DNA of 64,000 nt from Zeimonas arvi (GTDB lineage: Bacteria > Pseudomonadota > Gammaproteobacteria > Burkholderiales > Burkholderiaceae_E), in assembly GCF_008039575.1 (NCBI RefSeq), contig NZ_VDUY01000004.1, positions 62,001 through 126,000 of the forward strand, written 5' to 3'. The notes below the pieces were generated by a model. It ran no database searches. It was not told where the DNA came from and was given only the letters and a program-made list of their open reading frames with translations. Positions 9,319 to 28,649 of the stretch are shown here, piece by piece. The position numbers and the translations under genes are program-made. The first letter of the stretch is position 1. Each line of letters starts with the position of its first letter.

Positions 9319-9405
9319 TGCGCGAGCCGACATGGGACTCGCCTTGATCCATCTCAAGCCTTGCCGCGAACCGGGCGCTGCAAGATAGCGGCTTCCGGTC
9401 GGGGA

Positions 9406-9434: not shown

Positions 9435-9526
9435 GACCGGCATCGGGCGCTGCGCCGCCGGAGCCTGAGAACTCCGGAGGCTGCCCGAGTTTCACAGGCA
9501 ATCGAGCATACGCAAGGAGAACCGTC

Positions 9527-13877: not shown

Positions 13878-15323
13878 ATGATCGCTCGCGACACGCTGTA
13901 CATCGACGGCAAGTGGGTCCGCCCGCAGGGCCGGGGTCGCCTCGAGGTGACCGACTCCAGCACCGGCAAGCCCTGGGCGAGCATCCCCGAGGGCAACGCC
14001 GACGACGCGCAGGCCGCGATCGCGGCCGCGCGGCGCGCCTTCGCCGGCTGGGCCGGCATGACGCCGGCGGCCCGCGGCGAGGTGCTCGGCCGCGTCGCCG
14101 GCGAGCTGAAATCCCGCGCCGACGAGCTCGCCCGCGCGATCGCCACCGAGGTCGGCATGCCGCTGAAGATGGCCTCGCGCGTGCAGGTGGCGGGCCCGGT
14201 GGCGGCCTGGTCGGCCTACGCGAAGATGGCCGGCAGTTTCGAGTTCGAGCAACGTGTCGGCAATTCGCTGGTGGTGCGCGAGCCGGTCGGCGTGGTCGGC
14301 GCGATCACGCCCTGGAACTTCCCGCTGAACCAGATCACGCTGAAGGTCGCCGCCGCCATGGCCGCCGGTTGCACGGTGGTGCTCAAGCCCTCCGAGGTGG
14401 CGCCGATCAACGCCTTCATCCTGGCCGAGGCCATCGAGGCAGCCGGCGTGCCGGCCGGCGTGTTCAACCTGGTCACCGGCCTGGGACCGGTGGTGGGCGA
14501 GGCGATCGCCGGGCATCCCGATGTCGACATGGTGTCCTTCACCGGCTCGACCCGCGCCGGGCGCCGGGTAGGCGAGCTGGCCGCGCAGGGCATCCGCAAG
14601 GTGGCGCTCGAGCTCGGCGGCAAGTCCGCCTCGGTGGTGCTCGACGACGCCGACCTCGCGCGGGCCGTCAAGGCCACGGTGGGCAACTGCTACCTGAATT
14701 CCGGCCAGACCTGTTCGGCGCACACCCGCCTGGTCGTGCCGCGCGCGAAGCTCGCCGACGCGCTGACCATGGCCAAGGAGGCCGCCGAGCGCTTCACCGT
14801 GGGTCCGGCGCTGGCCGAGGGCTCGATGCTCGGGCCGCTGGTGTCGGCCGCGCAGAAGGAGCGGGTGCTGGGCTACATCCGTCGCGGCATCGACGAAGGC
14901 GCCACGCTGGTGACCGGCGGCGCCGACGCACCCGAGGTGCCGGCCGGCCATGAGGGCGGCTACTACGTGCGCCCCACCGTGTTCGCGGTCGAGGATTCGC
15001 GCGCCACGCTGGCGCAGGAAGAGATCTTCGGCCCGGTGCTCACCGTGATTCCGCACGACGGCGACGACGACGCGGTGCGCATCGCCAACGACTCGGTCTA
15101 CGGCCTGGGCGGCGGCGTCTGGGCCGGCAGCGACGAGCGGGCCAGCGCGGTCGCGCGTCGCATCCGCACCGGCCAGGTCGACATCAACGGTGGCGTCTGG
15201 AATCCGGCCGCGCCCTTCGGCGGCTTCAAGCAATCGGGGATCGGCCGCGAGAACGGCGTCTACGGTCTCGAGGAGTTCCTCGAGTACAAGTCGATGCAGT
15301 ACCGGCCGGCGCCGGCGGCCTGA
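13878..15323 (+). CDS. NAD(P)-dependent aldehyde dehydrogenase
   Basis: The 481-residue enzyme has the ALDH fold: PWNFPLNQITLKVAAAMAAG near residue 145, the SFTGSTRAGRRV Rossmann segment, the general-base glutamate in ALELGGKSA and the catalytic cysteine in NSGQTCSA near residue 280. EIFGPVLTV lies near the C-terminus. It oxidises an aldehyde to its acid; the substrate cannot be read from the sequence. It starts behind CAGGAGACC at ATG 13878 and lies 32 bp after the NnrS-like gene, so it may be cotranscribed. Confidence 0.93.
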   Translation: MIARDTLYIDGKWVRPQGRGRLEVTDSSTGKPWASIPEGNADDAQAAIAAARRAFAGWAGMTPAARGEVLGRVAGELKSRADELARAIATEVGMPLKMASRVQVAGPVAAWSAYAKMAGSFEFEQRVGNSLVVREPVGVVGAITPWNFPLNQITLKVAAAMAAGCTVVLKPSEVAPINAFILAEAIEAAGVPAGVFNLVTGLGPVVGEAIAGHPDVDMVSFTGSTRAGRRVGELAAQGIRKVALELGGKSASVVLDDADLARAVKATVGNCYLNSGQTCSAHTRLVVPRAKLADALTMAKEAAERFTVGPALAEGSMLGPLVSAAQKERVLGYIRRGIDEGATLVTGGADAPEVPAGHEGGYYVRPTVFAVEDSRATLAQEEIFGPVLTVIPHDGDDDAVRIANDSVYGLGGGVWAGSDERASAVARRIRTGQVDINGGVWNPAAPFGGFKQSGIGRENGVYGLEEFLEYKSMQYRPAPAA

Positions 15324-15339
15324 GCCGGCGCGGGCCGCC

Positions 15340-15759
15340 TCACTCGCACTTCGCGCGGATGTCGGCCGGCACCGGCACCGCGCGCAGGCGCTGCGGATCC
15401 TGCGGGTCGCGGATCACGAAGGCCCGGGTCTCGACGCTCTCGCAGATGAGGTCTTCGCCGCGCCGGATCTCGTGCCGCTGCAGGAATACCTTGTTGCGCC
15501 ATTCCTGGATCGAAGTGCTGATCGTGATTCGCTGGCCGTAGGTCACGGACTTGACGAAGCGCGTGTGGTGCTCGAGCAGGGGCGTGCCGACGATGCCGTT
15601 CGTCGCGGTCATTTCGCGCCACGGCGGCACGCCGCATTGCATGAAGAAGTGGAGCGAGGCGGCGTCCATCCACCGATGGAAGTTCGGGAAGAAGACGATG
15701 CCCGCCGGATCGCAGTGGCCGAAGCGCACGTCGATGTCCAGCGTGGAGGTCTTGGTCAT
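15340..15759 (-). CDS. Acyl-CoA thioesterase, 4-hydroxybenzoyl-CoA thioesterase family
   Basis: The 139-residue hotdog-fold protein carries the DVRFGHCDPAGIVFFPNF motif (about residues 9-26), whose aspartate is the catalytic residue of Pseudomonas-type 4-hydroxybenzoyl-CoA thioesterases. Length is typical. It would release an aromatic or short acid from CoA in the cytoplasm. It is convergent with the aldehyde dehydrogenase and lies 13 bp after the chromate-transporter gene on the same strand. Confidence 0.85.
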   Translation of the reverse strand: MTKTSTLDIDVRFGHCDPAGIVFFPNFHRWMDAASLHFFMQCGVPPWREMTATNGIVGTPLLEHHTRFVKSVTYGQRITISTSIQEWRNKVFLQRHEIRRGEDLICESVETRAFVIRDPQDPQRLRAVPVPADIRAKCE

Positions 15760-15772
15760 GGGCGTAGTCCGG

Positions 15773-17050
15773 TCAGGGGCCTGGGGTCGGGGGAAAGGCC
15801 GGGATCATCGCGCCGCCCAGCGCGGCAAAGGCCACGACGGCGATCGGCGAGGCCTTCGCGTAGACGAGCAGGCCGAACGCGGCCAGCGCCAGCGCGAAAT
15901 CCTCGCGTGAGTGAACTGCCGAGGTCCATACGGGATCGTAGAGCGCGGCCAGCAGGATGCCGACCACGCCGGCGTTGACGCCGGCCATGGCCGACCGGAT
16001 GCTCGCGCGGCGGCGCAGCGCTTCCCAGAAGGGCAGCGCCGCCACCACCAGCAGGAAGGCGGGAAGGAAGATCGCGACCAGCATCGCCAGCCCGCCGCGC
16101 CAGCCGCCGATCCAGCCGTTGCCCGACCCGGCGACCGATTCCGCAGCCAGCCCGGCCTCGGCGACCGGCGCCTGGGCCACCGCGCCGAGATAGGCCGCGA
16201 AGGTGAACAGCGGTCCCGGCACCGCCTGGGCCGCGCCGTAGCCCGCGGTGAAGGCTTCAGGGTCGACGAATCCGCCCGGCACGACGGCCGACTGCAGCAG
16301 CGGCAGCACCACGTGGCCGCCGCCGAAAACCAGCGCGCCCGCGCGGTAGAAGCCGTCGACCAGCGTGGCGAAGGCGGAGCCCGAGACCCCGGCCCAGATC
16401 GGCAGCAGCACGAGCAAGGACAGGAAGGCGGCGATCGCCATCGCGCCGGCACGCTTCGATACGCCGTACCCGCGATGTTCGGCGGCCTCGGCCGCTGGCA
16501 TCGCGAGCCAGCGCCAGCCGACCAGGCCGGCGACGAGGATCGCGCCGACCTGCGACAGGGCATTCGGCAGGAGCAGCGTCAGCAGGGCCGCCCCGATCGC
16601 GATGCCGGTGCGCGGGGCATCCGGGCACAGCGAGCGCGCCATGCCCCAGACTGCCTGCGCGACCACCGCCACGGCGGCGAGCTTCAGGCCGTGCACGACG
16701 CCGGAGGTCGCGAGCCAGCCGTGCTGGGCGATGCCCCAGCCGAACAGGATCAGCGCGAAGGCCGAAGGCAGGGTGAAGCCGCACCAGGCCGCCAGCGCGC
16801 CCAGCCAGCCAGCCCGCGACAGCCCGATCGCGATGCCCACCTGGCTGCTGGCCGGCCCGGGCAGGAACTGGCACAGCGCGACCAGGTCGGAGTAGTCGTG
16901 GTCGTCGAGCCAGCGCCGGCGCTCGACGAACTCGTTCCGGAAGTAGCCGAGGTGGGCCACCGGGCCGCCGAACGAGGTCAGACCGAGGCGAAGGAAGACC
17001 AGGAAAACGCTGGCGGCATGTCGAGTCGGCATCGATCGGAGCGGGATCAT
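15773..17050 (-). CDS. chrA: Chromate transporter, ChrA family
   Basis: The 425-residue protein is a full-length (two-half) CHR transporter: the N-terminal half has FLRLGLTSFGGPVAHLGYFR and LCQFLPGPASSQVGIAIG, and the C-terminal half repeats the pattern with GALVFGGGHVVLPLLQ and AVPGPLFTFAAYLGA. Both halves keep the FGGP/FGGGH and PGP motifs. Such proteins export chromate, and some members act on other oxyanions. ATG 17050 has AGGCGG immediately upstream; ATG 17032 is an alternative. A divergent promoter region separates it from the sigma-54 activator gene. Confidence 0.9.
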   Translation of the reverse strand: MIPLRSMPTRHAASVFLVFLRLGLTSFGGPVAHLGYFRNEFVERRRWLDDHDYSDLVALCQFLPGPASSQVGIAIGLSRAGWLGALAAWCGFTLPSAFALILFGWGIAQHGWLATSGVVHGLKLAAVAVVAQAVWGMARSLCPDAPRTGIAIGAALLTLLLPNALSQVGAILVAGLVGWRWLAMPAAEAAEHRGYGVSKRAGAMAIAAFLSLLVLLPIWAGVSGSAFATLVDGFYRAGALVFGGGHVVLPLLQSAVVPGGFVDPEAFTAGYGAAQAVPGPLFTFAAYLGAVAQAPVAEAGLAAESVAGSGNGWIGGWRGGLAMLVAIFLPAFLLVVAALPFWEALRRRASIRSAMAGVNAGVVGILLAALYDPVWTSAVHSREDFALALAAFGLLVYAKASPIAVVAFAALGGAMIPAFPPTPGP

Positions 17051-17258
17051 CCGCCTGAAATGGCCCTGTTTAGGGGGTTTTCCGTATGTACCTGCGGTCG
17101 TATCCTTAACGACGATGCGCCACAGCAGCGTCCGCTCGACGAGCAGTCCCGAGCAGGTGCGCACGGTCTGCCCGAGTCTAGCCGAAGCGGGCGCGGCCAA
17201 ACGGTGTCTGGGCTGCTCGAAGAAGCACGGCAGGTGGCAGGTGAATTGGCCGGAGTCC

Positions 17259-18644
17259 ATGCGCCGGGGGGTCCTGCTCATACAGGCTGCCGGTTCGATG
17301 ATCGACCTCGAACCGGTACTCGCCTCTGGGGGTTGGCGTCCCATTCGTTGCGCCGAGCCAGATCGGATCGAGGCTGCGGCAAGCGATCGTGATTGTCTGG
17401 TGTCGATCGTCGTGATCGAGCGGCTGGGCGATTTCGACTTGCGCGCGCTGCGCGCAGCCATCTGTCGCGCAGCGACGCAGATGGTCGCGGTCACGTCGTC
17501 CGCGGCGCTGGCCGACGCGTCGATCGCCGCGCTGCTGGCCGGCGATTGCTTCGATTTTCATACGCTTCCTGTCGAGAAGGATCGGTTTCTCGCGTCTCTG
17601 GGACACGCGTGCGGCAAAGCCGCTCTACGACGGCGGATGGTCGCTGCGGCCGGGGCCGTCGCAGGGCGGCACGGGATGGTCGGCACGAGCCGGGCGATGC
17701 TCGAGTTGTACCGATCGCTCGACAAGGTCGCCCGGGTCGACGCGCCGGTCCTGATCGGTGGCGAGAGCGGGACGGGCAAGGAGATCGCGGCCCAGGCGAT
17801 CCACCGTGCCACGCCGGGCCGCAACGGCCCCTTCGTCGCGGTGAACTGCGGGGCGATCCCGCCCCAGCTGATGCAAGCCCAGCTGTTCGGCCACGAGAAG
17901 GGCGCGTTCACCGGCGCGCATCAGCGCCAGATCGGGAGTCTCGAGGCCGCAGGCGGCGGCACCATCTTTCTCGACGAGATCGGCGACCTGCCACTCGAAT
18001 CGCAGGCCAGCCTGCTTCGCTTCCTCCAGGAATCGACCGTGGTCCGGATCGGCTCCACCCGCGCGCTGCGCGTCGACGCCAGGGTCGTGGCAGCCACGCA
18101 CGTGGATCTCGGCGCGGCCGTGGCGGACGGTCGCTTTCGCGAGGACCTCTATTACCGCCTCAATGTGCTTCAGCTCCGGGTACCCCCGCTTCGTGAGCGG
18201 GTCGAGGACATTCCGATGCTCGTCGAGCACGTCTTCGAGCTCTGGCCTGACCACCGAACCCCGACGCTGATCGGCATCTCGCGCGACGCCTTGCGGGCGA
18301 TGCGTGAGTACTCGTGGCCGGGCAACGTCCGCGAGCTGATCAACAGGGTCCATCGAGCGATGGTCATGTGCGAAGGGTCGCTGATCGATGCGGAGGATCT
18401 CGGGTTGGGCGCACTCGCGGCGAACGTCGGATCACGATCGCTCGCAACCGCCCGGCGGGGCACCGAGCGAGACCTGGTGATCGCCGCACTTGTACGCAAT
18501 GCCAACAACATGGCGGCCGCCGCGCGCGAGCTCGGCGTGTCGCGAGTCACCTTGTACAGGATGGCCGAGCGCCTGGCCGTCCGGCCGAGACGGCGAGAGT
18601 TCGGCGCGCATTCAGGGGAGGGCAATGATGGAAACCGACAATGA
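17259..18644 (+). CDS. VpsR-like sigma-54-dependent transcriptional activator
   Basis: The 461-residue protein has an N-terminal receiver-like domain without the usual acidic phosphorylation cluster (residues 1-135), an AAA+ domain with Walker A GESGTGKE near residue 168, the sigma-54-contacting GAFTGA near residue 215 and IFLDEIGDLPLESQ as Walker B, and a C-terminal Fis-type helix-turn-helix (ARELGVSRVTLYRMAERL). This layout matches VpsR/FleQ-type activators of biofilm genes, some of which bind cyclic-di-GMP. ATG 17259 has GGAG upstream. The gene overlaps the outer-membrane protein gene and probably controls the locus to its right. Confidence 0.88.
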   Translation: MRRGVLLIQAAGSMIDLEPVLASGGWRPIRCAEPDRIEAAASDRDCLVSIVVIERLGDFDLRALRAAICRAATQMVAVTSSAALADASIAALLAGDCFDFHTLPVEKDRFLASLGHACGKAALRRRMVAAAGAVAGRHGMVGTSRAMLELYRSLDKVARVDAPVLIGGESGTGKEIAAQAIHRATPGRNGPFVAVNCGAIPPQLMQAQLFGHEKGAFTGAHQRQIGSLEAAGGGTIFLDEIGDLPLESQASLLRFLQESTVVRIGSTRALRVDARVVAATHVDLGAAVADGRFREDLYYRLNVLQLRVPPLRERVEDIPMLVEHVFELWPDHRTPTLIGISRDALRAMREYSWPGNVRELINRVHRAMVMCEGSLIDAEDLGLGALAANVGSRSLATARRGTERDLVIAALVRNANNMAAAARELGVSRVTLYRMAERLAVRPRRREFGAHSGEGNDGNRQ

Positions 18645-19884
18645 GAGCCCGGCAAGGGTCGCCATGGCACTGGCGATCGGGCTCGGGATGGCGGTCGCCG
18701 GAGCGTCGGCCCGGGCACAAGGCATCGACGGCGAATCGGGGCTTCGCGCGATCGAGCACAGGCTCGAAGAGGGGGCTCGCCGACTGCAGGAGCTCCGGCG
18801 CCAGCTCGACGACGCGCAGCGACGTCTCGACGAGGATCGGCGCGAGCTGGAGCGCATGGCGGGAAGGAGCGAGGCATATCTGGGCGGTCTCTCGGCGCGG
18901 GGCGGTCCGCCGCAGCTGGCTCAGGCGCCCACCGGCCCGGTGGGCGAGGCGCCGAAGCCGCCCGATCAGCCGGCTGCGTCGGCCCGCATCTTCGACGAGC
19001 CTACGGCGCTGACGCCGCGCGGCAAGCTGGTCCTGGAGCCCACCTACCAGTTCGTTCATGCGACCGACAACCGGATCGCGCTGGTCGGCTACAGCGTGAT
19101 CCCGGCGATCACGATCGGCCTGATCGACGTGCGGCGTGTGTCCCGGGACATCCACACGCTCTCGGTCACCGCCCGCTACGGCGTCACTGGCCGCTTCGAG
19201 CTCGAGGGCAAGCTGCCCTGGGTCTCGGCGAGCAGCTCCACGCTCACCCGCCCCCTGGCGACTCCCTCGGTGACCGACAGTTTCTTCGACTCGAACGGTT
19301 CGGGCATGGGCGACATCGAGCTCGCCGCGCGCTATCAGCTGAACCAGTTCCGGGGAGACAACGCGGTCTATATCGGTTACCTGCGCTACAAGTCGCGCAC
19401 CGGCGAAGGACCGTTCGAAGTCCCGATCGATCCGGCCACCGGACTCCAACAGGAACTGCCGACCGGGTCCGGCTTTCATGGCCTGCAGGCGGGGGTGACT
19501 TTCCTCTATCCCTCGGATCCGGCGGTGTTCTTCGGTGGTATCGCGTACATGCACAACTTCTCGCGGGACGTGGGCAACGGATTCGGCCGGATCCGCCCCG
19601 GCGGCGTCACCGACATCAATCTGGGGATGGGCCTGGCGCTCAACGAGCGCTCCTCGTTCAGCATCGGCTACCAGCACAGCATCGTCGGCAGGACCTCGCA
19701 AAGCGACCCGGCATCGGCGGCCAGGTTGCTGGCGCCGTCGGGCAGCCTGCAGCTCGGCACCCTTCGCTTCGGCATCGCGTACCGCGTCACCCAGAAGCAG
19801 AACGTGAACCTGTCGCTGGGCATCGGCGTCACCGACGACAGCCCCGATGTGGAGCTCACGCTGCGGGTGCCGTGGTCACTGTAG
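18628..19884 (+). CDS. Coiled-coil plus beta-barrel outer-membrane protein, FapF-like
   Basis: The 418-residue protein has a Sec signal peptide (cut near ASARA-Q), a heptad-rich coiled coil (about residues 35-80, LRAIEHRLEEGARRLQELRR onward), a Pro-rich linker and a barrel of alternating strands from about residue 130 ending RVPWSL. FapF, the trimeric amyloid-export pore of Pseudomonas, has the same order of coiled coil then barrel. It overlaps the activator gene by 17 bp; GGAGGG favours ATG 18628 over ATG 18625. Other transporter-like barrels share this fold, so the FapF assignment rests on architecture and context. Confidence 0.7.
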   Translation: METDNESPARVAMALAIGLGMAVAGASARAQGIDGESGLRAIEHRLEEGARRLQELRRQLDDAQRRLDEDRRELERMAGRSEAYLGGLSARGGPPQLAQAPTGPVGEAPKPPDQPAASARIFDEPTALTPRGKLVLEPTYQFVHATDNRIALVGYSVIPAITIGLIDVRRVSRDIHTLSVTARYGVTGRFELEGKLPWVSASSSTLTRPLATPSVTDSFFDSNGSGMGDIELAARYQLNQFRGDNAVYIGYLRYKSRTGEGPFEVPIDPATGLQQELPTGSGFHGLQAGVTFLYPSDPAVFFGGIAYMHNFSRDVGNGFGRIRPGGVTDINLGMGLALNERSSFSIGYQHSIVGRTSQSDPASAARLLAPSGSLQLGTLRFGIAYRVTQKQNVNLSLGIGVTDDSPDVELTLRVPWSL

Positions 19885-19916
19885 CGGCCTCCGGAAGTAC
19901 GGCCTGCAAGGGCGCC

Positions 19917-19945
19917 TCGCCGGGTCGGCCTCGGCGGCCCGGCGA
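19917..19945. terminator. Candidate hairpin between convergent genes
   Basis: TCGCCGGG (19917-19924) pairs perfectly with CCCGGCGA (19938-19945) across a 13-base loop, in the 68-bp gap between the converging barrel and lipoprotein genes. No T-run follows on either strand, so termination is plausible but unproven. Confidence 0.4.
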
Positions 19946-19952
19946 AGCTCCG

Positions 19953-20780
19953 TCAGCGCTGTCCCACGAAGGTGCGCCCGGCCGAACGCGAATCGTCGAG
20001 GAGCATCAGGACCAGCTGCGACGGGCCGCTCGACGGCGCGGTCACGAATCCGACACCGGCGATCGACTCGCCGTCGCTGCTGCCGCAGCCGTTGCCCAGC
20101 GTGAAGTTCGCGTCGTAGACATTGCGCCCCGATGACCTGGCCCGTAACGAGCCGCTGAACTCGCAGCTGTAGGCGATGCTGCCGTCTGGGGCGAAGCCGC
20201 TGGCTACGCCCCGGACTGCGCCCTGCTCGCTGACCTCGATGCCGCCCGTTTCGGTGCGCCCGAAGAACCCGGGCCACTGCCCGGCGACGGCCGCGGCATT
20301 GGCCGGCTGGTCATAGTCGTAGTCGGCCACCGCTGCGGCCGTCACGGTGTACTGGTACGGGGGCGCCGGCGGAGTGGGCGTGACGGGGGTGATCGCGATG
20401 TCCATTCGCTCACGCGGCGCGTAGGTGGCGCTGAGCGAGGAAGTCTCGACGATTCCCTGGAGGAAGTTGTAATCGCGCAACTCTGCGACCGTGTAGTTGC
20501 CGTCGCGCGACGAGCCGTTGCCTTGAACGAAGCCGCCGTGCTCTCCGCCGGCCCTGCCGGTCGCGGGCGGCAGGCGGTAGACACCCCAGAGCTGATCGTT
20601 CTCCAGCACCAGCAGGAATATGCCCGAGCCATCGTCGTTATCGAGCGCGTAGGCGCCCTCCGCCACGCGTGGAGCGGACGCCGGCCCGGTCGCCACCACG
20701 GGATCGTCTCCGCCTCCGCCGCAGCCGCCAAGCGCGGCCGCCAGAGTCGCTGCCAGGCCGAATGCCTTCGATCGATTCAT
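19953..20780 (-). CDS. Predicted lipoprotein of the amyloid-like locus, unknown function
   Basis: The 275-residue protein has a lipoprotein signal (AAALGGC, Cys20) followed by a Gly/Asp linker. The rest is beta-rich with repeats of strand-turn character (DGSGIFLLVLENDQLWGVY; later GGIEVSEQGAVRGVASGF and GQLVL-type ends), resembling beta-sandwich lipoproteins that sense or bind at the outer membrane. I do not recognise a family. It is the last gene of the leftward operon, starting 3 bp after the FapE-position gene, so it likely supports that system. Confidence 0.75.
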   Translation of the reverse strand: MNRSKAFGLAATLAAALGGCGGGGDDPVVATGPASAPRVAEGAYALDNDDGSGIFLLVLENDQLWGVYRLPPATGRAGGEHGGFVQGNGSSRDGNYTVAELRDYNFLQGIVETSSLSATYAPRERMDIAITPVTPTPPAPPYQYTVTAAAVADYDYDQPANAAAVAGQWPGFFGRTETGGIEVSEQGAVRGVASGFAPDGSIAYSCEFSGSLRARSSGRNVYDANFTLGNGCGSSDGESIAGVGFVTAPSSGPSQLVLMLLDDSRSAGRTFVGQR

Positions 20781-20783
20781 GAT

Positions 20784-21638
20784 TCAGCGCCGCAACGCGT
20801 CGAGGGCCTGCTGTTGTTGCAGGAAAGAAGCGAGGTGCGAGGCACGCAGCGCCGCGAGGCTGCTCATCGTCGCCTGGATCCGGGTCTCGGTGTCGATGCG
20901 TATCGCCGCGACCGAGTTCTGGATCGTGGTCATCATCGCGGCGGCGTCGGGCAGGTTGCTGACCGTGACGGCTGGCGCGGCATTCGCGACCGGAAGTGCG
21001 GCGCCGGGCGCGCTTGCGGAGCGACCCGGAAGCTCGCCGTTGGCGGCATTGACCCCCGCCGCAAGGCCCGGCCCGAACTGCCCCATTGCCGACGAACTCG
21101 CCCCGGCCGATCCCGAGGCCGTCGGGGCCGCACCCTGGCTCGGCGCCGCAGGCGGAACGGCAGCGTCCGGGATCGCGCGCGATGCGAAGCCGAGAGCGGC
21201 GCCCGCCGCCGCCGAAGTCCGTCCGCCGGGCGCGGTCGGCGCAACGCTGTCGACGCCAGCCTGGTCGAGGATTCGCGCAACGCCGTCCTGTGCGACGACC
21301 GTGTTGTTCTGCCCGATCTGGATCAGGTTGGCCAGATTGCCGGCGAGTTCGACGCGCGGCGCCTGCCCCCGGGACAGGTTGGCCACCTCGGAGAGCACGA
21401 GTCGCGAGCGCGACACGACCTCACCGTCGATCCGGACGAGCCGTTCGATCGAGAAGTTCGCGATGAGCACCCCGAGATCCAGGCCGCCACGCATCTGTGC
21501 CAGCGCCTCGTCCTGCACTGCGCTCCACGCGTCGATCGGCGAAGCGCTCCCGGTTGCGCCGACAGCGGCGGGCGCGGCGGCGAGCAGCGCCGCAGCCAGC
21601 CAACTGGGTACGGCAAGCCTGCGTCCATCTGTTTCCAT
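20784..21638 (-). CDS. Exported protein at the FapE position with RGG motif
   Basis: The 284-residue protein has a signal peptide (cut near residue 28) and then DEALAQMRGGLDLG (residues 43-56), a double-glycine-like motif. The next segment (VLIANFSIERLVRIDGEVV) is a strand pair, followed by LIQIGQNNTVVAQDG (residues 105-119), an Ala/Ser/Pro-rich linker and a C-terminal helix rich in Gln (FLQQQQALDALRR). It sits between the C39 peptidase and the lipoprotein, as FapE sits near FapD in Pseudomonas. GAGG precedes ATG 21638. Function is inferred from context only. Confidence 0.7.
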   Translation of the reverse strand: METDGRRLAVPSWLAAALLAAAPAAVGATGSASPIDAWSAVQDEALAQMRGGLDLGVLIANFSIERLVRIDGEVVSRSRLVLSEVANLSRGQAPRVELAGNLANLIQIGQNNTVVAQDGVARILDQAGVDSVAPTAPGGRTSAAAGAALGFASRAIPDAAVPPAAPSQGAAPTASGSAGASSSAMGQFGPGLAAGVNAANGELPGRSASAPGAALPVANAAPAVTVSNLPDAAAMMTTIQNSVAAIRIDTETRIQATMSSLAALRASHLASFLQQQQALDALRR

Positions 21639-21651
21639 GACGTGCCTCGAC

Positions 21652-22365
21652 TCAGAATCTGCTCGCGTCCGGGATGCCCAGCGTGAGCGTGCCCAACCCG
21701 TCACGCGAGACGGCCAGGGCGGTTGGCGCGGCCAGGCGAGAGGCCCAGTCGGCCGGCGCGTTGAAGCTGGCAGTGTCCAGATGGCTGCGAATGACGAAGA
21801 AGATCCCGCCGACCCAGAGCGATTCGAACTGTTGCCGGTCGACGAAGCGAGTGCCGATCGCCGGATCACCCAGCACCACGCGATTGCGCTGCAAGCCTTT
21901 GACGACCACGAAATGGCGGTATCCGTTGTCGCTGACCAGCGCGATGGCCGGCACGCCGACGCTGGCGAGCTCATCGAGCGATACCTGCACGCCGTCGGCA
22001 CGATAGCCTTCGGCCTCGAGGTATCGCTTCATGTCGAGCAGCGAGAAGCCCTCCGCGCGGATCTTCGGCTGGTCGCCGCGCTCCCACATCCTCTGGAAGA
22101 CCTGAGCCTCGCTGACCTTGCGGCCGTAGTGAAACGTGAGCAGGGTCGCGATCGCGGCCGACCCGCAACTGAAGTCGTATTTCTGGTGAACCGTGGTCCG
22201 GAAGGCGGCCTGCTGCCGGATCTCCTTGATCGTGCGGATGGGCATCGCGTAACCGCGGCCCGATTCGGCCAGCACCGGCGCCGTGCCGACCGCTCCGGCC
22301 GGACGCAGCGCACCAGCCGCCAGCGCAAGGGCCGCGAGTGCCAGGATGAATCCGCGGCGAATCAC
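21652..22365 (-). CDS. Periplasmic C39-family cysteine peptidase, FapD-like
   Basis: The 237-residue protein has an N-terminal signal peptide and one papain-like C39 domain without the ABC-transporter parts found in bacteriocin exporters. The active site is visible: QKYDFSCGSAA (Cys67), GYRHFVVVKG (His151) and VLGDPAIG (Asp167), with Gln61 in the oxyanion position. C39 enzymes cut after double-glycine motifs, and FapD is the C39 protease needed for Fap amyloid export. It starts with GTG 22365, 7 bp after the small exported gene, so coupling is likely. Confidence 0.85.
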   Translation of the reverse strand: MIRRGFILALAALALAAGALRPAGAVGTAPVLAESGRGYAMPIRTIKEIRQQAAFRTTVHQKYDFSCGSAAIATLLTFHYGRKVSEAQVFQRMWERGDQPKIRAEGFSLLDMKRYLEAEGYRADGVQVSLDELASVGVPAIALVSDNGYRHFVVVKGLQRNRVVLGDPAIGTRFVDRQQFESLWVGGIFFVIRSHLDTASFNAPADWASRLAAPTALAVSRDGLGTLTLGIPDASRF

Positions 22366-22372
22366 GGTCGCG

Positions 22373-22753
22373 CTACTTCAGCTGGAGATTGAGGATCGTC
22401 GAGTTCTGGATCACGACGTTGTTGCCGGAGTTCTGGACGACCATCGGCACGCCGTTCGCGTTCGAGAACGCGCTGTCGGCGATCGTGTTGTTCCCCGTGG
22501 CGAGATTGCTCGCGACGTTGCCCTCGACGGTGGCAGTCGCGTTGTTCTGGTTGACGTGAACGTTGCCGCCGCGCTGTCCGGCGAGCTCGCTCTCGCCGAG
22601 GACGCGACCGAACGCGACGTCCGCGCGCGCAGGACCGCCCCTGGCCTCGCTTGCGACGAGACCGTCGCCTTCCTCGGCAACGGCCGGCGCCACGGGCGCG
22701 AGAAGCGCCAGGGCCAGCAGGGCTGCGCCGGCGATCGGCTTCGTGGAACTCAT
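22373..22753 (-). CDS. Small exported protein with double-glycine and QN-rich motifs
   Basis: The 126-residue protein has a Sec signal (cut after APAVA, residue 26), then LGESELAGQRGG (residues 52-63), which matches the double-glycine leader pattern (Leu -12, Glu -8, Leu -7, Gly -2, Gly -1). The remainder is Asn/Val/Gly-rich with HVNQNNATATV and the C-terminal VVQNSGNNVVIQNSTI, typical of beta-forming amyloid-like units. It could be the minor subunit or nucleator beside the giant protein. AGAGG precedes ATG 22753. No known family is certain. Confidence 0.75.
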   Translation of the reverse strand: MSSTKPIAGAALLALALLAPVAPAVAEEGDGLVASEARGGPARADVAFGRVLGESELAGQRGGNVHVNQNNATATVEGNVASNLATGNNTIADSAFSNANGVPMVVQNSGNNVVIQNSTILNLQLK

Positions 22754-22784
22754 GTTCCTCTCCGGAGATGCGGTTCGATTCGTC

Positions 22785-22818
22785 GCGAAGGGAGGCGCCC
22801 GATGGCGCCTCCCTTCGC
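22785..22818 (-). promoter_or_regulatory. Strong intercistronic stem-loop after the giant gene
   Basis: GCGAAGGGAGGCGCC (22785-22799) and GGCGCCTCCCTTCGC (22804-22818) form a perfect 15-bp stem with a 4-base loop in the 92-bp gap downstream of the giant gene. No T-run follows on the minus strand. It could cap and stabilise the giant mRNA or act as a partial terminator, giving more structural protein than accessory proteins. Confidence 0.75.
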
Positions 22819-22845
22819 TCCGAGGATCACTGACCGGCTTTCCGA

Positions 22846-25128
22846 TCAGCGAACCGCGAGGTTCGCCTGCACGTTGACGCTTTGCTGGATCAGCGACGCG
22901 AAGCCGGTGTTCTGGCTCATGACGGTGATGCCGGCACTGTTGGCGAACGAACCGCCGCTCACGGTATTGGACATGTCGAAGGTCCCGGCGTCGACCATGA
23001 TGGTGCCGCCCGCGCCCCCGACCGCGCCGTTGCCGACGCCGCCCGTGCCGCCCGTGCCGCCGTTACCGACGCCGCCGGCCGCGCCCACGGCACCGCTCCC
23101 GCCGGACGCGCTGCCATTCGTTGCAGAGCCGTTCGACGCGGTGGTGGATGCGCCGCCGTTCGTGGCGTTACCTGCCGTCGCCGCGCCACCCGCGCCGCCC
23201 GCGCCACCGGCGTTGCTTGCCGTTCCGCCGGCGCCGCCGTTGCCCGCGACCGCGGTGGCCGTCCCACCCGTGCCGCCGGTTCCGCCGTTCGGCGAGAATG
23301 TGCCGCCACTGGCCGTGCCGCCCATGCCGCCGGCACCGCCATTGCCGCCGTTGCCGCCATCGCCGCCTGCGCCGCCCGAGCCGAGCGAGGCACTCGCGCC
23401 GCCGTTGGTTGCGCTACCGTTGGTCGCGGAGCCGCCCGCGCCGGAATGTCCGCTGGTGTTCATCGCGGTGTTGGTGCCGCCCCTTCCGCCCGTGCCAGTG
23501 CCAGCCATGGCCGTCCCGCCGGCGCCGCCAGTACCGCTCACCGCGCCCGATCCGCCGGTGCCGACGCCGCCGGCGCCGCCGGTCCCACCGGTGCCCGTCG
23601 CGCCGGCCGCGGCAGCGGCCATGCCGCCGGTGCTCGTGCCGGTTGCGCCGGCCGCGCCGACCGCCCCGCTGCTGGTGGCCGCTGCCGCCGTGGCCGGCGC
23701 GCTGGCGCCGCCCGCGGCGCCGGTCGCGCCGGACCCGCCGGTGCCAGCGCCCGCGGTGTTCGTCCCGCCAACGCCGGCGCCGCCGGTGCTGGTGCCACCG
23801 GTGTTGGTACCAGCGGTGCTGGTGCCGGCGGAATTGCCATCCCGGCGCCCATCGTTCGTTGCCGAGGCCTGGGCGTTCGCGCCTTCCGCGCCGGCGCCTG
23901 ACGCGCCTCCACCGGTCGCGCCGGCGCCAGTCGCCCTGCCGCCGACGCCGCCCGCGCCATCGCCGCCGCTGCCGCCGTTGCCGGCATCGCCGACCGACGC
24001 GGACGTGCTGCTGTTGCCCGCGCTGCCGCCCGAGCCACCGGAGCCGCCGGCCGCCATGCCGCCGGCGCCGCCGTTGCCGCCGCCGCCATTGCCCCCGGAG
24101 CCGTTTCCGGCATCACCACCCATGCCGCCTGCGCCGGTGCCGCCGGCGCCGCCGGTGCCCGAGGCGCCGCCCATGCCGCCGTTGGCGAAACCGCCGAGGC
24201 CGCCGGTGGCGTTCGCCCCGCTGGCGTCGGCGTTGCCGGCGCGACCCGTGTTGCCACTGTCACCCGCTGCGGCATATCCATTGGACGCGCTGCCGTTGGT
24301 CGTGTTGCCGTTGCTCACGCTGCCGCCGGCCGATCCGATCGCGCCGGTCGCACCGTTGCCGCCGGTGGCGCCGTTCGCGGTCGCCGAGCCCGTGGAGGTC
24401 GAGTTCCCGGCGTTGCCGGCCGCGCCGCCCCAGGCCGCAGAGTTGCCGCCCCAACCGCCGTTGGCGCCGTTGGCATCCCCGGTGTCGCCGCCGCGACCGC
24501 CCCGGCCGCCCTGGGCGCCCCAATTGGTGGCGCTGCCGTTGCTGGCCGCGCCAGCGCTCGCGCTGCCATTGGTGGCGCTGCCGTTGTTCGCGTTGCCGCC
24601 ATTGCCGCCATTGCCGCCGTTGCCGCCGCTGCCGCCGTTCCCGGTGCCGCCGTTGCCGCCCTGGCCGTTGCCGCCGGGGCCTGCGTACGTGCTGCCCCAG
24701 TTGCCGGCCTGGTTGCCGATGTTCCTGATCGTGTTGTTGCTGACCGTCGCGCTGAGCGTCGAGGTTGCCACGATCGCGGTGTTCCAGGTCTGCGTGGTGT
24801 TGTGTGAGTTCCAGTTGGCGGCCGCAGTGCCGCCATCGATCGCGGCCGCCCCGCCCAGTCCGGAGGCGTTCTTGCTGTTGTTGCTCCGGTTGCTGTTGTC
24901 GGCCTGGTTGCTTGTCGAGGTCGTGGTGGTCGTGTCTTGAGAAGCCGACGAGTATTCATTCGCCTGCGGACTGCCGTCACCGCTCTGCCTCGACGTGGCG
25001 GAGGTGTTCTGGGTGATCGATCCGCTCCTGTCCAGCGGACTGTCGTTGACTTCAGCGTAAGGGTTGGCGATGGCCGTACCTGAGCCGAAGGCCATGGCGA
25101 TTGCCGTGGCGAGCAATGTCTTCCTCAT
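22846..25128 (-). CDS. Giant exported Gly/Ala/Asn-rich protein, candidate amyloid or matrix subunit
   Basis: The 760-residue protein has a Sec signal (cut near AIA, residue 21), a Ser/Asn/Thr/Gln-rich N-terminal region (residues 22-149), a long low-complexity block of GGNGG, GTGG, SATNGSA-type units (about 150-708) and a C-terminal tail with SQNTGFASLIQQSVNVQANL (residues 738-757). No cysteine is seen and aromatics are rare. Composition and context suggest an extracellular fibre or matrix protein. ATG 25128 has GGGAG 7 bp upstream. It differs from Pseudomonas FapC, which has three imperfect repeats and a CxxC end. Confidence 0.85.
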   Translation of the reverse strand: MRKTLLATAIAMAFGSGTAIANPYAEVNDSPLDRSGSITQNTSATSRQSGDGSPQANEYSSASQDTTTTTSTSNQADNSNRSNNSKNASGLGGAAAIDGGTAAANWNSHNTTQTWNTAIVATSTLSATVSNNTIRNIGNQAGNWGSTYAGPGGNGQGGNGGTGNGGSGGNGGNGGNGGNANNGSATNGSASAGAASNGSATNWGAQGGRGGRGGDTGDANGANGGWGGNSAAWGGAAGNAGNSTSTGSATANGATGGNGATGAIGSAGGSVSNGNTTNGSASNGYAAAGDSGNTGRAGNADASGANATGGLGGFANGGMGGASGTGGAGGTGAGGMGGDAGNGSGGNGGGGNGGAGGMAAGGSGGSGGSAGNSSTSASVGDAGNGGSGGDGAGGVGGRATGAGATGGGASGAGAEGANAQASATNDGRRDGNSAGTSTAGTNTGGTSTGGAGVGGTNTAGAGTGGSGATGAAGGASAPATAAAATSSGAVGAAGATGTSTGGMAAAAAGATGTGGTGGAGGVGTGGSGAVSGTGGAGGTAMAGTGTGGRGGTNTAMNTSGHSGAGGSATNGSATNGGASASLGSGGAGGDGGNGGNGGAGGMGGTASGGTFSPNGGTGGTGGTATAVAGNGGAGGTASNAGGAGGAGGAATAGNATNGGASTTASNGSATNGSASGGSGAVGAAGGVGNGGTGGTGGVGNGAVGGAGGTIMVDAGTFDMSNTVSGGSFANSAGITVMSQNTGFASLIQQSVNVQANLAVR
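23005..24681 (-). repeat. Glycine-rich low-complexity repeat block inside the giant gene
   Basis: About 560 codons consist of irregular short units rather than exact tandem copies: GGxGG runs, GTGG and GAGG units, and recurrent SATNGSA or NATNGGA segments. Codons for Gly vary, which argues for old, selected repeats rather than recent slippage. On the opposite strand the same DNA reads as a long Pro/Ala-rich open frame with no gene character. Confidence 0.8.
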
Positions 25129-25209
25129 TTGTGCACTCCCTGTCGCGAATGACCTGCGCGTTGATGTTGGGCGGGGATGCACTCGAAACGTCCCCCGCCT
25201 CGGCGCCGA

Positions 25210-25225
25210 TGCAAGTCGCATGCCC
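25210..25225 (-). promoter_or_regulatory. Sigma-54 promoter of the giant-protein operon
   Basis: Read leftward, the site is GGGCATGCGACTTGCA. It matches TGGCACG-N4-TTGC[AT] at 10 of 12 informative positions, with both the GG and GC dinucleotides and correct spacing. Transcription would start near 25199, leaving about 70 bases of leader before ATG 25128. The activator gene at 17259 supplies the needed protein type. Confidence 0.7.
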
Positions 25226-25315
25226 GTGGCGCGATGCCCGCAAGGTCCTGATTCGCCTGGCAAGCGCTTGTGGTCGTGCGTCGGGGAACTGTTCTGGTAA
25301 TGAAACATGTATCGT

Positions 25316-25330
25316 TCCCGAATCACGGGA
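25316..25330. promoter_or_regulatory. Candidate activator-binding inverted repeat
   Basis: TCCCG-AATCA-CGGGA lies about 100 bp upstream of the sigma-54 promoter, a usual distance for an enhancer site. GAGCAGTCCC follows at 25331-25340 and also occurs at 17141-17150 upstream of the activator gene. Either could be a binding site; evidence is only positional. Confidence 0.35.
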
Positions 25331-25385
25331 GAGCAGTCCCAGCGCGCCGGAGGCGGCGCGATGGCCAGCCGTCAGGGAGGTCGCG

Positions 25386-25976
25386 ATGGACTCAGCGCAG
25401 GACGGGCCTGATGCAGAGACCGTGCTGCAGCACCTGTTGCGGCGCCACTCGATCGGGCCCAGGCAGCTCTCGGCGCCCGGCCCGACGCGCGGCGAGCTCC
25501 GGCTGGCCGCACGGGCAGCGATGCGTGCGCCCGATCACAAGCGCCTGTCGCCAGTCAGGCTTGTCGAGATTCCCGATGCGCGCCGCGCCGAGCTCGCGGC
25601 CCTGTTCGAGGATTTCGCGCGGCGCAGCGGCCGGTCCGCGGTCGAAGCGAAGGAAGAGGCCGCGCGCGCCTGGAACGGCCCGGCCCTGGTGGCGCTGGCC
25701 GCGCGCATCGACGCCGAGGCCGGCGTGCCGCCGCACGAGCAGTGGATCGCGGTGGGCGGGGCGCTGGCCAACTTCATGAACGCCCTGCACCTGCTGGGCT
25801 ACGGCGCCAAGATGCTGAGCGGCCGCAAGGCCGCCGACCCGCGCATCACTGCCGCGCTGTGCGAGCCCGGCGAAACGCTGGTGGGCTGGATCGCGATCGG
25901 CACGCCCACCGCCGCGGCGAAGGCGCGCGGCGAAGACGACCCGGACAGGATCCTTCGCAGCTGGGCGAGATCCTGA
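25386..25976 (+). CDS. Nitroreductase-family oxidoreductase
   Basis: The 196-residue protein has the nitroreductase fold pattern: RRHSIGPRQLSAPGPTRGEL at the N-terminus, AARAAMRAPDHKRLSPVRLV, then PPHEQWIAVGGALANFMNALHLLGYGAKMLSG and GWIAIGTP near the C-terminus. It would be an FMN enzyme using NAD(P)H; the substrate is unknown. ATG 25386 follows AGGGAGG. It is divergent from the giant-protein gene across 257 bp and is probably not part of that system. Confidence 0.85.
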   Translation: MDSAQDGPDAETVLQHLLRRHSIGPRQLSAPGPTRGELRLAARAAMRAPDHKRLSPVRLVEIPDARRAELAALFEDFARRSGRSAVEAKEEAARAWNGPALVALAARIDAEAGVPPHEQWIAVGGALANFMNALHLLGYGAKMLSGRKAADPRITAALCEPGETLVGWIAIGTPTAAAKARGEDDPDRILRSWARS

Positions 25977-25984
25977 CCGGTGCG

Positions 25985-26869
25985 TCAGAGCGTGCGCGCG
26001 TTGAACGTGTCGCACTGCCTGAAGTCGCCCGACTCCAGTCCGCGCCTGAACCAGGCCACCCGCTGCTTGCTGGTGCCGTGCGTGAAGCTGTCGGGCACCA
26101 CGTAGCCCTGCGACCGCTTCTGCAGCGCGTCGTCGCCGATCTGCGCGGCCGCGTTCATCGCTTCCTCGATGTCGCCCTGCTCGAGGATCCGCCTGGCCTC
26201 GTGCGCATGGTTGGCCCACACCCCCGAGAAACAGTCGGCCTGCAGCTCCACGCGCACGCTCAGCTCGTTGGCGTCGGCCTGGCTCATGCGGGCCTGCGCC
26301 GAGCGCACCTGCTCGCTGATCCCCATCAGGTTCTGCACGTGGTGGCCCACCTCGTGGGCGATCACGTAGGCCTGCGCGAAATCGCCGGGCGCGCCGAGCC
26401 GGTTCTTCATCGTCTCGTAGAAGCCCAGGTCGATGTAGACCTTCTGGTCGGCGGGGCAGTAGAAGGGCCCCATCGCGGCCTGGCCTACCCCGCAGGCGGT
26501 CTGGGTGGCGCCGCGGAACAGCACCAGGACCGGCTCGCGGTAGCGCCCGCCGTTGTCGGCGAACACCTGCTGCCAGACGTCTTCGGTGTCGGCAAGCACC
26601 ACCGACACGAACCTGCCCATCTCGTCGTCGATCGGGCCGCGTTGCGCCGGCGCCTGCTGGGTCGGCGCCGAAGACATCGGGTCGCCGCCCGCCAGCATGC
26701 CCAGCAGGGTCAGCGGGTTCACGCCGAGCAGCCAGCCAGCGACCAGCGCGATCGCGATGGTGCCCAGCCCGATGCCGCCGCCGCCGAGACGAATCCCTCC
26801 GCCTCCGAAGCCGCCGCCCGAGCGGCGATCCTCGACATTGCTGCTCTCGCGGTTTCCTCGCCACTTCAT
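25985..26869 (-). CDS. Neutral zinc metallopeptidase, YpfJ family
   Basis: The 294-residue protein is membrane-anchored by one helix (about residues 37-58) after a Gly-rich N-terminus, with an outside domain holding the zinc motif [14 protein letters not shown] near residue 170 and the downstream [13 protein letters not shown] glutamate region. This is the pattern of the YpfJ/DUF1342-type putative neutral zinc metallopeptidases. Substrates are unknown. It is convergent with the nitroreductase, with 8 bp between the stops. Confidence 0.92.
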
Positions 26870-26948
26870 GGCCGGCTCCGGTTCGGGGACAGGACTGCCG
26901 GTCGGCCAGGCCGCCGGCTCGCGGATACCCGCGATCGGATTCTAGCTT

Positions 26949-27701
26949 TCATCGCCGCCGCCAGGCCCGGTAGCGGATCCGGAGATCGTCCAGGAAGGGC
27001 CGCAGCGAGATCGGCACCAGGATCGCGGCCAGGCCGATCGTCATGGCGTAGCCGACGTGCTTGAAGCCGAGCGCGCCGACCAGGCCGCCCACGAAGAACA
27101 TGCCGATCAGCAACGCGTGCAGCCGCAGTCTGCGCCGGTCCGCCACGACCCGGGTGTCGTCGCGGAAGCGGTTCACGTAGACCAGCTTGCCGAGCTCGAT
27201 GCCCAGGTCGGTGACCAGGCCGGTGACGTGCGTGGTGCGGATCTCCGCGCGCGAGATCTTGGTGATGACCGCGTTCTGCAGGCCCATGACGAAGCACAGC
27301 ACCAGCACCGTCGCGGGCAGCAGCAGCGCGATCTTCATCGACATGGCCGCCCCGAGCAGTCCGAAGACGAGCAGCAGCGCCGCCTCGAGCAGCAGCGGCA
27401 GCGCGTACTGGCTGCGCAGCCGCGTGCGACGTCCCCAGTTGACCAGCACCGCGGTGGTCATCGCGCCGGCCAGGAAGCTGCCGAGCGCGGCCAGCCCGGC
27501 CAGCGCCATCGTGAGCTGGCCCAGCGCCAGGTTGTCGGCCATCGACGAGACGATGCCGGTCATGTGCGAGGTGTACTGGCCCACCGCCAGGAAGCCGCCG
27601 GCATTGGCCGCGCCTGCCACGAAGGCGAGCGCCGCGCCCAGCTTCACGTTGGCCTGTGGGGTTCGCTCCACCGCGGCCAGCTTGCGTACCCCGGGCAGCA
27701 T
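26949..27701 (-). CDS. DUF1275 (YoaK) family membrane protein
   Basis: The 250-residue protein has six or seven hydrophobic helices and the DUF1275 signatures: AFVAGAANAGGFLAVGQYTSHMTG near residues 29-52 and GLQNAVITKISRAEIRTTHVTG near residues 140-161. Function of the family is unknown. It lies downstream of the MBL hydrolase on the same strand, with a 45-bp gap. Confidence 0.92.
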   Translation of the reverse strand: MLPGVRKLAAVERTPQANVKLGAALAFVAGAANAGGFLAVGQYTSHMTGIVSSMADNLALGQLTMALAGLAALGSFLAGAMTTAVLVNWGRRTRLRSQYALPLLLEAALLLVFGLLGAAMSMKIALLLPATVLVLCFVMGLQNAVITKISRAEIRTTHVTGLVTDLGIELGKLVYVNRFRDDTRVVADRRRLRLHALLIGMFFVGGLVGALGFKHVGYAMTIGLAAILVPISLRPFLDDLRIRYRAWRRR

Positions 27702-27746
27702 GGCGTGTCTCGTCGGGAAGTCGGCGTGGCGGCGACTGGCGGGCGT

Positions 27747-28649
27747 TCAGGCCGCGGCGAAGCGGCCGGGTTCGACTTCCGACACGCGGCCGGCGGCGGC
27801 CAGCTCGTCGAGGTGCTGGGTGATCGTGCGGCGCTCGACGTCGTCGATCCACAGCTCTTCGTAGTCGGCAGGGTAGAGCAGGCGGATCGCCACCAGTTCG
27901 TCCACGCTCCGGGGCGCCTCGCGCAGCAGTTCAACCAGCCGATCGCTGCGCTCGTCGATCCTGCCGGCGAAGGCGGCCAGCGCCTCGAGGAAGGCCGGCC
28001 GCTCGGTGTAGATGCCGCGATGGTGAGACGTGACCCAGACGCGCGCCGGCACCTCGGGCAGGCGCGCGAGCGTGCGGCGGAACTGGGCAAGGCTCGAGGT
28101 GGCGTCGCCGTAGTAGGGGCCGAAGCCGCTCAGGTCGATGTCGCCGATGAAGGCCACGCCCTCGGGCTCGACCAGCAGCACGCAGTGGCCCGAGGTGTGG
28201 CCGGGCATGTGGATCGCACGCACCGTGGACCCGCCCAGGTCCCAGCTGGCGCCGTCCCGGTAGGCGATCGCGTCGGGCCGCGGCGCGTAGTGGAACTCTC
28301 GCAGGGCCTTGTCGAGCATCTTGCGCGCCGCCTCGGGCGACAGCCCGAAGTGCCGAGACAGTCCTTCCCAGCTGCGCGCGGCCTCGACGTCGAGCTCGTG
28401 CACGTGCACCGGCGCGCGCGGCACGCGATGCAGCCCCGCCATGTGGTCCTCGTGAACGTGGCCCTGGATGACCAGCTCGGCATCGTCGACGTCGGCCCCG
28501 ATGCGATTGGCCACCAGCGGCGTGTCGAAGATCGCGTGCGTGTCGGTGCCGCGCACCACCACCTGGTTGCCGTCCGGATACTTGCCTGACTTCTCGCCGA
28601 AGAAGACCGAGACGCGGCCGAAGTCGGCTCGGCGGATCGGGTCGCTCAT
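27747..28649 (-). CDS. MBL-fold metallo-hydrolase with C-terminal winged helix
   Basis: The 300-residue protein has the metal-binding HVHEDH motif (about residue 65), HMPGHTSGH near residue 147 and GDIDLSGFG near residue 168, giving a complete binuclear metal site. Residues 240-300 (LLREAPRSVDELVAI, then ITQHLDELAAAGRV) form a winged-helix-like end, as in some beta-lactamase-like hydrolases. The substrate is unknown. It starts 17 bp after the small DUF3185-type gene. Confidence 0.85.
   Translation of the reverse strand: MSDPIRRADFGRVSVFFGEKSGKYPDGNQVVVRGTDTHAIFDTPLVANRIGADVDDAELVIQGHVHEDHMAGLHRVPRAPVHVHELDVEAARSWEGLSRHFGLSPEAARKMLDKALREFHYAPRPDAIAYRDGASWDLGGSTVRAIHMPGHTSGHCVLLVEPEGVAFIGDIDLSGFGPYYGDATSSLAQFRRTLARLPEVPARVWVTSHHRGIYTERPAFLEALAAFAGRIDERSDRLVELLREAPRSVDELVAIRLLYPADYEELWIDDVERRTITQHLDELAAAGRVSEVEPGRFAAA

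Follow-up and report, generated by a model that had tools for sequence, protein, structure and literature searches.

A widespread Fap-like locus with putative double-glycine leaders and a glycine-rich large subunit in Zeimonas arvi

We analyzed a stretch of 64,000 nt from Zeimonas arvi (contig NZ_VDUY01000004.1 of assembly GCF_008039575.1; referred to here as the window, within which all positions are counted). It contains a seven-gene locus that a first-pass annotation, made from the letters alone, had assigned as a whole to a Fap-like amyloid system. This assignment is supported by genes of the FapF, FapD, and FapE types, recognized by sequence, profile, or fold, and by a conserved gene set. 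Judging from sequence comparisons, we regard the locus as widespread and as related to the amyloid-secretion system Fap of Pseudomonas (fapABCDEF), forming a lineage apart from canonical Fap instead of a fap operon with odd parts. The best overall explanation, which we consider likely, is that it represents a sister lineage of the Fap amyloid system operating by the mechanism proposed below; “sister” is a reading here, since the root of the underlying peptidase tree is not known. The data directly support the homology of the pore, the protease, and (by profile) FapE, as well as the gene set, the leaders, the subunit repeat with its bridge to FapB, and the promoter-like sites. All seven reading frames lie where that annotation had placed them: an activator gene and a FapF-like pore gene, overlapping by 20 bases, lie on the plus strand and converge with five genes on the minus strand, which encode, in this order, the large subunit, the small subunit, the C39 peptidase, the FapE-like protein, and the lipoprotein. 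The genome contains one copy of the locus, and Rfam gave no match at the gathering threshold in window positions 15000 to 28000.

FapF-like pore and FapD-like peptidase within a conserved gene set

The outer-membrane protein P0002 (positions 18625 to 19884, plus strand) comprises a signal region, a coiled-coil-like helix, and a beta barrel. It matched the NCBIfam FapF model with an E value of 2.7e-35 (122 bits, not reaching the curated cutoff of 700) and the sequence of the solved FapF with 6.9e-27 by phmmer. An AlphaFold model built from 44 alignment rows (mean predicted local distance difference test [pLDDT] score, 81.8) and compared as a monomer shows the long helix at residues 36 to 89 and a barrel with 13 strands of at least 6 residues. 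Its best match in the PDB is FapF entry 5o67 (E value, 2.9e-22; TM score, 0.82 on the target), and the top 18 matches are all FapF chains (2.9e-22 to 6.7e-17), followed by a COG4313 channel at 1.5e-12. Sequence and fold thus agree on the coiled-coil pore that had been proposed, and FapF outranks all other structures, including any unrelated transporter, which had been set beforehand as the outcome speaking against the assignment.

The second shared component is P0005 (21652 to 22365, minus strand), which matched Peptidase_C39 in Pfam and the NCBIfam FapD model with an E value of 3e-40 (137.8 bits, not reaching the curated cutoff of 330). Residues Gln61, Cys67, His151, and Asp167, which we take to be the catalytic-type residues of C39 peptidases, are invariant in a 15-row alignment, and a signal peptide was read by eye. 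The periplasmic C39 peptidase of the first-pass annotation can therefore be specified as FapD-like. The second NCBIfam match of P0005 was FilB, and the locus resembles the putative pilus system Fil of Acinetobacter in having a related C39 peptidase (FilB, 119 of 475 bits) and outer-membrane protein (FilC, 52 of 630 bits); however, P0005 and P0002 score better to FapD and FapF, and no other Fil model matched among NCBIfam.

When the C39 alignment was run against genomes of 84,980 species, at least 585 relatives were obtained; the best 80, chosen by their C39 peptidase alone, constitute the named loci used below. All 80 encode a FapE-like protein, 77 a small subunit, and 76 a FapF-like pore. A large subunit was found in 71 loci: 60 by hidden Markov model (HMM; 61 proteins, two of them in L135) and 11 by a C-terminal pattern, the latter located upstream among the 17 loci with only a small subunit; an earlier count of 77 had included cross-matches on the small subunit. 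By HMM and C-terminal pattern, no large subunit was found in L114, L119, L120, L133, L143, and L164, and neither subunit was found in L162, L170, and L178. Most often, the large-subunit gene comes first, followed by those for the small subunit, C39, and the FapE-like protein; a homologue of P0001 (E value up to 1e-60) lies within the fetched flanks of 40 of the 80 loci. Across taxonomic samples, P0002 was matched (E value up to 1e-5) in 19 of 150 genomes of the same order and the small subunit in 15 of the 397 genomes sampled from the phylum (E value up to 1e-6; no more than ten candidates were scored in each), while the FapD model matched in 6 of 18 genomes of the genus and also in 7 of 14 control genomes (the three noncontrol counts include the window’s own genome). 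The five other loci of the genus, some cut by contig ends, all contain relatives of P0002, P0004, and P0005 (E values below 1e-100) as well as of P0006, and related loci occur in Cupriavidus, Lysobacter, Massilia, Variovorax, Dechloromonas, and others. Cupriavidus strains with the locus include C. necator and C. metallidurans CH34, the latter by its C39 match. The gene set is thus conserved across genomes; genes not kept together would have spoken against the assignment. The lipoprotein P0003 (19953 to 20780, minus strand), earlier described as an added part of the system, lies outside this set and appears incidental: no homologue was found in sets of 18, 20, and 80 locus regions (the last searched with a positive control), so that we rejected it as a system component. 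One of the five same-genus loci contains a homologue, on the far side of the regulator (L050, 1010 to 1849).

The relation to canonical Fap was assessed with 13 class-level loci whose FapF proteins score 307 to 456 bits; the material comprised repeats from 11 loci (36 repeats in 19 proteins), FapE from 9 and later 11, and C39 from 10 (C39 was not seen in L091, and L090 is truncated by its contig). Like Pseudomonas Fap, the locus has a FapF-type coiled-coil barrel, a FapD-type C39 peptidase, a FapE-type protein, two subunits with Fap-type repeats, a VpsR-domain σ54 activator nearby, and a similar gene order. This homology of FapF, FapD, and FapE would also fit a divergent fap operon, in which P0007 is FapC, P0006 is FapB, and the mechanism is no different. 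In many loci, moreover, subunits, C39, FapE-like, and FapF-like genes share one strand, as in fapBCDEF, with the FapF-like gene on the C39 strand in 40 of 76. The curated NCBIfam cutoffs for FapB, C, D, E, and F, none of which the locus reaches, say little in this respect, being a weak test: the canonical locus L082 passes for FapC (211.6 of 195) and falls below those for FapB, D, E, and F.

However, a single branch of the C39 tree (support, 99/83; present in 100% of 200 bootstrap trees) separates the 10 canonical rows from 29 family rows, which comprise L161, the window, and 27 rows drawn from every third of the 80 loci; 9 other rows were assigned to neither group, and the tree is unrooted. 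Subunits here carry one C-terminal repeat instead of three, and the large one has a Gly-rich region. Gene order is usually inverted relative to fapB-fapC, in that the large subunit is encoded before the small one. Double-glycine leaders are present on the FapE-like protein and the small subunit, in contrast to RG[RK] at the aligned place in all 11 identifiable canonical FapE proteins (9 obtained via a pattern that accepts G, R, K, or L at this position, and another 2 without that pattern). No FapA-like open reading frame (ORF) was found with the pattern [VI]ILWDE in window positions 15000 to 28000 or in the 80 loci, the pattern being blunt and finding only 4 of the 13 canonical loci; FapA is often absent from fap operons (PMC3792158). 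Weighing these points, we consider a merely divergent fap operon improbable and prefer a separate lineage. In the parts of the literature relevant here, fap clusters defined by FapBC repeats number 1172 in GTDB, with three repeats in 94% of FapC (PMC12392863), and fapD-fapF pairs are mentioned, without further description, in five additional phyla (PMC6173800). The clade may be undescribed, as we found no published account of it among the titles listed in a search that covered no preprints and few subscription papers.

Two side observations concern the wider occurrence of these genes. In L091 (6910 to 11229) and L094 (1211 to 8438), FapF-like genes lie beside what appear by eye to be glycosyltransferase or polysaccharide genes, L091 being without a C39 match, and such pores may serve other cargo. 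In the Fap-type locus L084 (5175 to 6681), the C39 gene is shortened, and its start is overlapped by a transposase-like ORF, also read by eye.

Double-glycine leaders and the likely targets of the peptidase

P0004 (20784 to 21638, minus strand) had been listed as an exported protein without a place in the system; it can now be placed. It sits in the FapE position, between the fapD- and fapF-type genes, and a profile of its family (95 rows) aligned with nine canonical FapE sequences in hhalign with a probability of 86.5 (E value, 4.6e-6; score, 41.6), compared with a best score of 15.9 among 40 column-permuted controls. Two points weigh against full FapE equivalence: the match is confined to the leader and the first strands, and the part after the leader alone reaches a probability of 3 (with smaller alignments and no control).

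The leader in question ends, in P0004, with RGG at residues 50 to 52 (21483 to 21491, minus strand), with a predicted cut after residue 52. The small subunit P0006 (22373 to 22753, minus strand) has the same arrangement of a Sec-type signal followed by a leader, ending with RGG at residues 61 to 63 (22565 to 22573, minus strand) and a predicted cut after residue 63; the Sec-type signals before the leaders were read by eye, without a signal-peptide program. Across the named loci, GG is present in all 80 FapE-like proteins, preceded by Arg in 78 and by His in 2; position −7 is Leu in 76 and Met in 4, position −12 is mostly V, L, or I, and position −4 is M, L, V, or I in most rows. The small subunits have GG in 70 of 77, Leu at −7 in all 77, and V, L, or I at −12 in 70. 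The pattern [LM]...[RS]GG occurs in 78 of 80 FapE-like proteins. The narrower [LM]...RGG is found in 64 of the 77 small subunits and in none of the 61 large ones; among 685 further ORFs from these loci, a mixed set of exported and nonexported proteins, 14 contain it.

A GG pair at positions −2/−1 with this spacing is the classical double-glycine leader consensus, and C39 peptidases cut there. The leaders on P0004 and P0006 therefore suggest what P0005 cuts, making these two proteins the likely targets of the system’s own protease. The resemblance to PCAT and ComA processing extends to Leu at −7, the mostly V/L/I position −12, and the protease family, and the PDB chains closest to P0005 are the double-glycine protease domains of peptide exporters (6mpz, PCAT, ComA). 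Since the combination of such leaders with C39 peptidases is a hallmark of bacteriocin export, and the structures nearest to P0005 belong to bacteriocin and peptide exporters, the locus could be read as a bacteriocin-like export system in which P0006 would be secreted as a small toxic peptide and P0007 would be a matrix protein unrelated to it. Yet the peptidase here is free and has its own signal peptide, the Pfam scan found no ABC (ATP-binding cassette) transporter family in P0005, and the leader stands behind a Sec-type signal. A FapF-type pore is conserved, and the P0006 and P0007 families have a common C-terminal repeat, bridged to FapB (see below). We therefore regard a bacteriocin-like system as very unlikely and retain the reading of a Fap-type lineage.

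The target of FapD has been a question in Pseudomonas. According to Rouse et al. (2017; PMC5557850), the Fap proteins have no canonical C39 sequences, a FapD Cys mutant secretes no FapC, and the FapD target is unclear, with FapE as a likely candidate; a 2018 review (PMC6173800) describes it as yet to be determined. The present family has, by sequence, the kind of site missing from Pseudomonas Fap proteins. Several points caution against extending this to both substrates. Mass spectrometry described in PMC5557850 indicated complete N-terminal processing for FapE only, and perhaps also processing in the FapF linker; the proteins of that system are without canonical C39 sites. In our data, position −4 of the small-subunit leader is mixed and has no regular hydrophobic residue, a difference from PCAT and ComA.

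Leader-like features were also seen in other proteins. L099 encodes a 403-aa FapE-like protein (8472 to 9683) with a hydrophobic segment and ∼200 coiled-coil-like residues before the RGG leader, as read by eye. A motif resembling the leader, L..[VI].G, in which the final residue is degenerate, is present in FapA-like proteins of L082, L083, L088, and L096, and FapA may thus share the leader type.

Single C-terminal repeats and a putative Gly-rich insertion

The large protein P0007 (760 aa; 22846 to 25128, minus strand) had been proposed as the main subunit in place of FapB and FapC. Its size and Gly richness hold, but its repeat is common to the small subunit P0006 as well, and each protein has one C-terminal copy (residues 718 to 760 of P0007, positions 22849 to 22977; residues 88 to 126 of P0006, positions 22376 to 22492; both minus strand), not the approximately three imperfect repeats of FapB and FapC. 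Repeat windows of the two families, anchored by a pattern that missed 3 of the 17 small subunits and 2 of the 10 large ones, aligned with each other with a probability of 95 (E value, 3.6e-8; no permuted control for this pair). The small-subunit windows aligned with the 36 canonical Fap repeats with a probability of 56 (E value, 1.1e-4), and none of 60 permuted controls scored as high.

The link to canonical repeats becomes clearer through L161, a locus of this family in Acidithiobacillus ferriphilus whose large subunit has four repeats (its reading frame lies at the contig start and is perhaps incomplete). The canonical Fap repeat HMM matches this subunit at 2.1e-9 (36 bits, versus 23 for the best of 1000 shuffles), as does the NCBIfam FapB model at 5.4e-13 (49 bits, under the curated 190). 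In turn, an HMM of the four L161 repeats matches 68 of the 138 subunits of the family, including its source protein, and none of 1380 shuffled sequences; among canonical FapB/C proteins it matches 8 of 19, versus none of 950 shuffles. P0006 matches it at 8e-5, with no shuffled copy at 1e-3 or below. On these sequence grounds, the L161 subunit appears to bridge the family repeat to FapB. Acidithiobacillus FapC with 4 to 8 repeats has been described before (PMC3792158), so that the repeat count of L161 is not new; the link comes from the presence of this subunit in a locus of the present kind.

Several results weigh against this relationship. One of 60 permuted controls equalled the score of the large-subunit windows alone against canonical repeats, and P0007 reaches only an E value of 0.012 with the L161 repeat HMM. 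The canonical repeat HMM finds no P0006 or P0007 repeat directly (best family score, 11.2 bits in L100 with an E value of 0.15; P0006, 7.5 bits; shuffles, up to 8.8) and attains 1e-3 in just 1 of 138 family subunits, the L161 bridge itself. P0004, P0006, and P0007 match no NCBIfam model at E values up to 1, including those for FapB, FapC, and FapE, which do match proteins of the canonical locus L082. Finally, neither the L161 protein (E value up to 1) nor the P0006 profile (up to 5) matches any PDB chain by sequence, FapC included, and a single-sequence structure model of the L161 subunit had a pLDDT score of 32 and was not used.

The bulk of P0007 is a Gly-rich region (residues 150 to 715; positions 22984 to 24681, minus strand) with Gly periodic at 3 residues: residues 151 to 715 contain 40% Gly, 20% Ala, and no Cys, and the Gly correlation at lag 3 is 0.32, versus at most 0.13 in 500 shuffles. 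Directly before it lies a conserved arm (residues 123 to 139; 24712 to 24762, minus strand; ends approximate). Aligned without a pattern in 53 large subunits, this stretch has a conserved consensus ending in S.LsGTVSGntV, which resembles the start of the small-subunit core. The profile comparison of arm and small subunit gave an E value of 0.0035 (0 of 60 permuted controls as high), and that with insertion-less subunits gave 1.2e-4 (no control); single-sequence scoring of the arm against the small subunit was not significant, with 0 of 58 above 4 bits. Of 61 large subunits searched with the arm pattern (P0007 and 60 from the named loci, excluding L161), 38 contain it, two of these matches (L160 and L176) looking false; the other 23, some of them cut by contig ends, have none. 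The Gly-poor, insertion-less large subunits of L132, L144, and L172 align unbroken to the small-subunit core over 54 to 59 model positions. There is moderate support for a reading in which the Gly-rich region interrupts the repeat domain as an insertion; a fold of the polyglycine-II type is an idea that comes from GGX proteins.

The large subunits of L132, L144, L151, and L172, from a Geobacteraceae metagenome-assembled genome (MAG), a deltaproteobacterial MAG, Geomesophilobacter, and Thioalkalivibrio, contain only 6 to 8% Gly. L135 (3996 to 7433; Pseudothauera rhizosphaerae) and L111 (3740 to 7368; a proteobacterial MAG) each encode two Gly-rich large subunits in tandem.

The position of the repeat allows another interpretation, that P0007 is a nonamyloid Gly-rich surface coat or adhesin secreted through the FapF-like pore, with the repeat as a mere sorting tag. 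Outside L161, the repeat lies at most 12 residues from the C terminus in all 66 domain matches (E value up to 0.01), and one layer per monomer is little for a fiber. Against this, four repeats in one L161 chain would be pointless for a tag, and the repeat is linked via the same protein to that of FapB. We hold the sorting tag to be unlikely and continue with the repeat as a fiber-forming layer.

Regulation and proposed mechanism

P0001 (17259 to 18644, plus strand) contains Sigma54_activat (225 bits), AAA lid, HTH_8, and VpsR (32.1 bits; cutoff, 23.7) domains, all above the Pfam cutoffs, which confirms the VpsR-like σ54 activator of the first-pass annotation; given these domains and its homologues near related loci, it is the probable activator of the locus. 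Among the regulators scanned, the VpsR domain also exceeded the cutoff in 4 of 5 from the family and 3 of 4 from canonical loci, suggesting an activator type common to Fap loci. In the window, a σ54 promoter-like site (GGGCATGCGACTTGCA; 25210 to 25225, minus strand) lies 97 nt before the P0007 start and scores 28.5 with a hand-made weight table. Across 59 upstream regions, with large-subunit start codons chosen by rule, sites scoring at least 28 occur 73 to 133 bases before the large-subunit gene in 28 (control mean, 1.2; maximum, 4; other strand, 0). They are present in 21 of 30 regions with a regulator nearby versus 7 of 29 without, and 17 of the 59 regions contain the exact sequence TGGCAC-N5-TTGC (control mean, 0.01; maximum, 1). 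At a threshold of 24 the contrast is weaker, with 49 of 59 against a control mean of 16.9 and a maximum of 25, which tempers this reading.

From these elements we infer the following course for cleavage, the export route, fiber formation, and the roles of the two subunits. P0001 together with σ54 would switch on the subunit operon, and the exported proteins would pass the inner membrane via Sec. In the periplasm, P0005 would remove the second leader, ending in RGG, from P0004 and P0006, after which P0004, P0006, and P0007 would exit through the FapF-like coiled-coil pore. Outside the cell, P0006 and P0007 would assemble through their single C-terminal repeats, stacked on each other as layers of cross-beta structure. 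P0006 would probably act as nucleator or minor subunit, and the looped-out Gly-rich region of P0007 would form a surface coat. We put forward tentatively, as somewhat less probable than not, the more specific proposal of a large sister class of Fap that combines two successive leader removals (Sec, then a C39-cut double-glycine leader) with fibers of single-layer monomers, in which a Gly-rich, triplet-periodic domain of up to ∼570 residues within one repeat domain loops from each layer to give a bottle-brush fiber.

The double-glycine sites in the FapE-like protein and the small subunit make the question of the FapD target testable with one protease and two short substrates, and the aligned leader place shows where to look in Pseudomonas FapE. 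More broadly, the locus points to a second Fap-type system with a different kind of fiber protein in several genera, among them Cupriavidus and Lysobacter, and it would offer a natural design in which an amyloid-type layer bears a very large loop.

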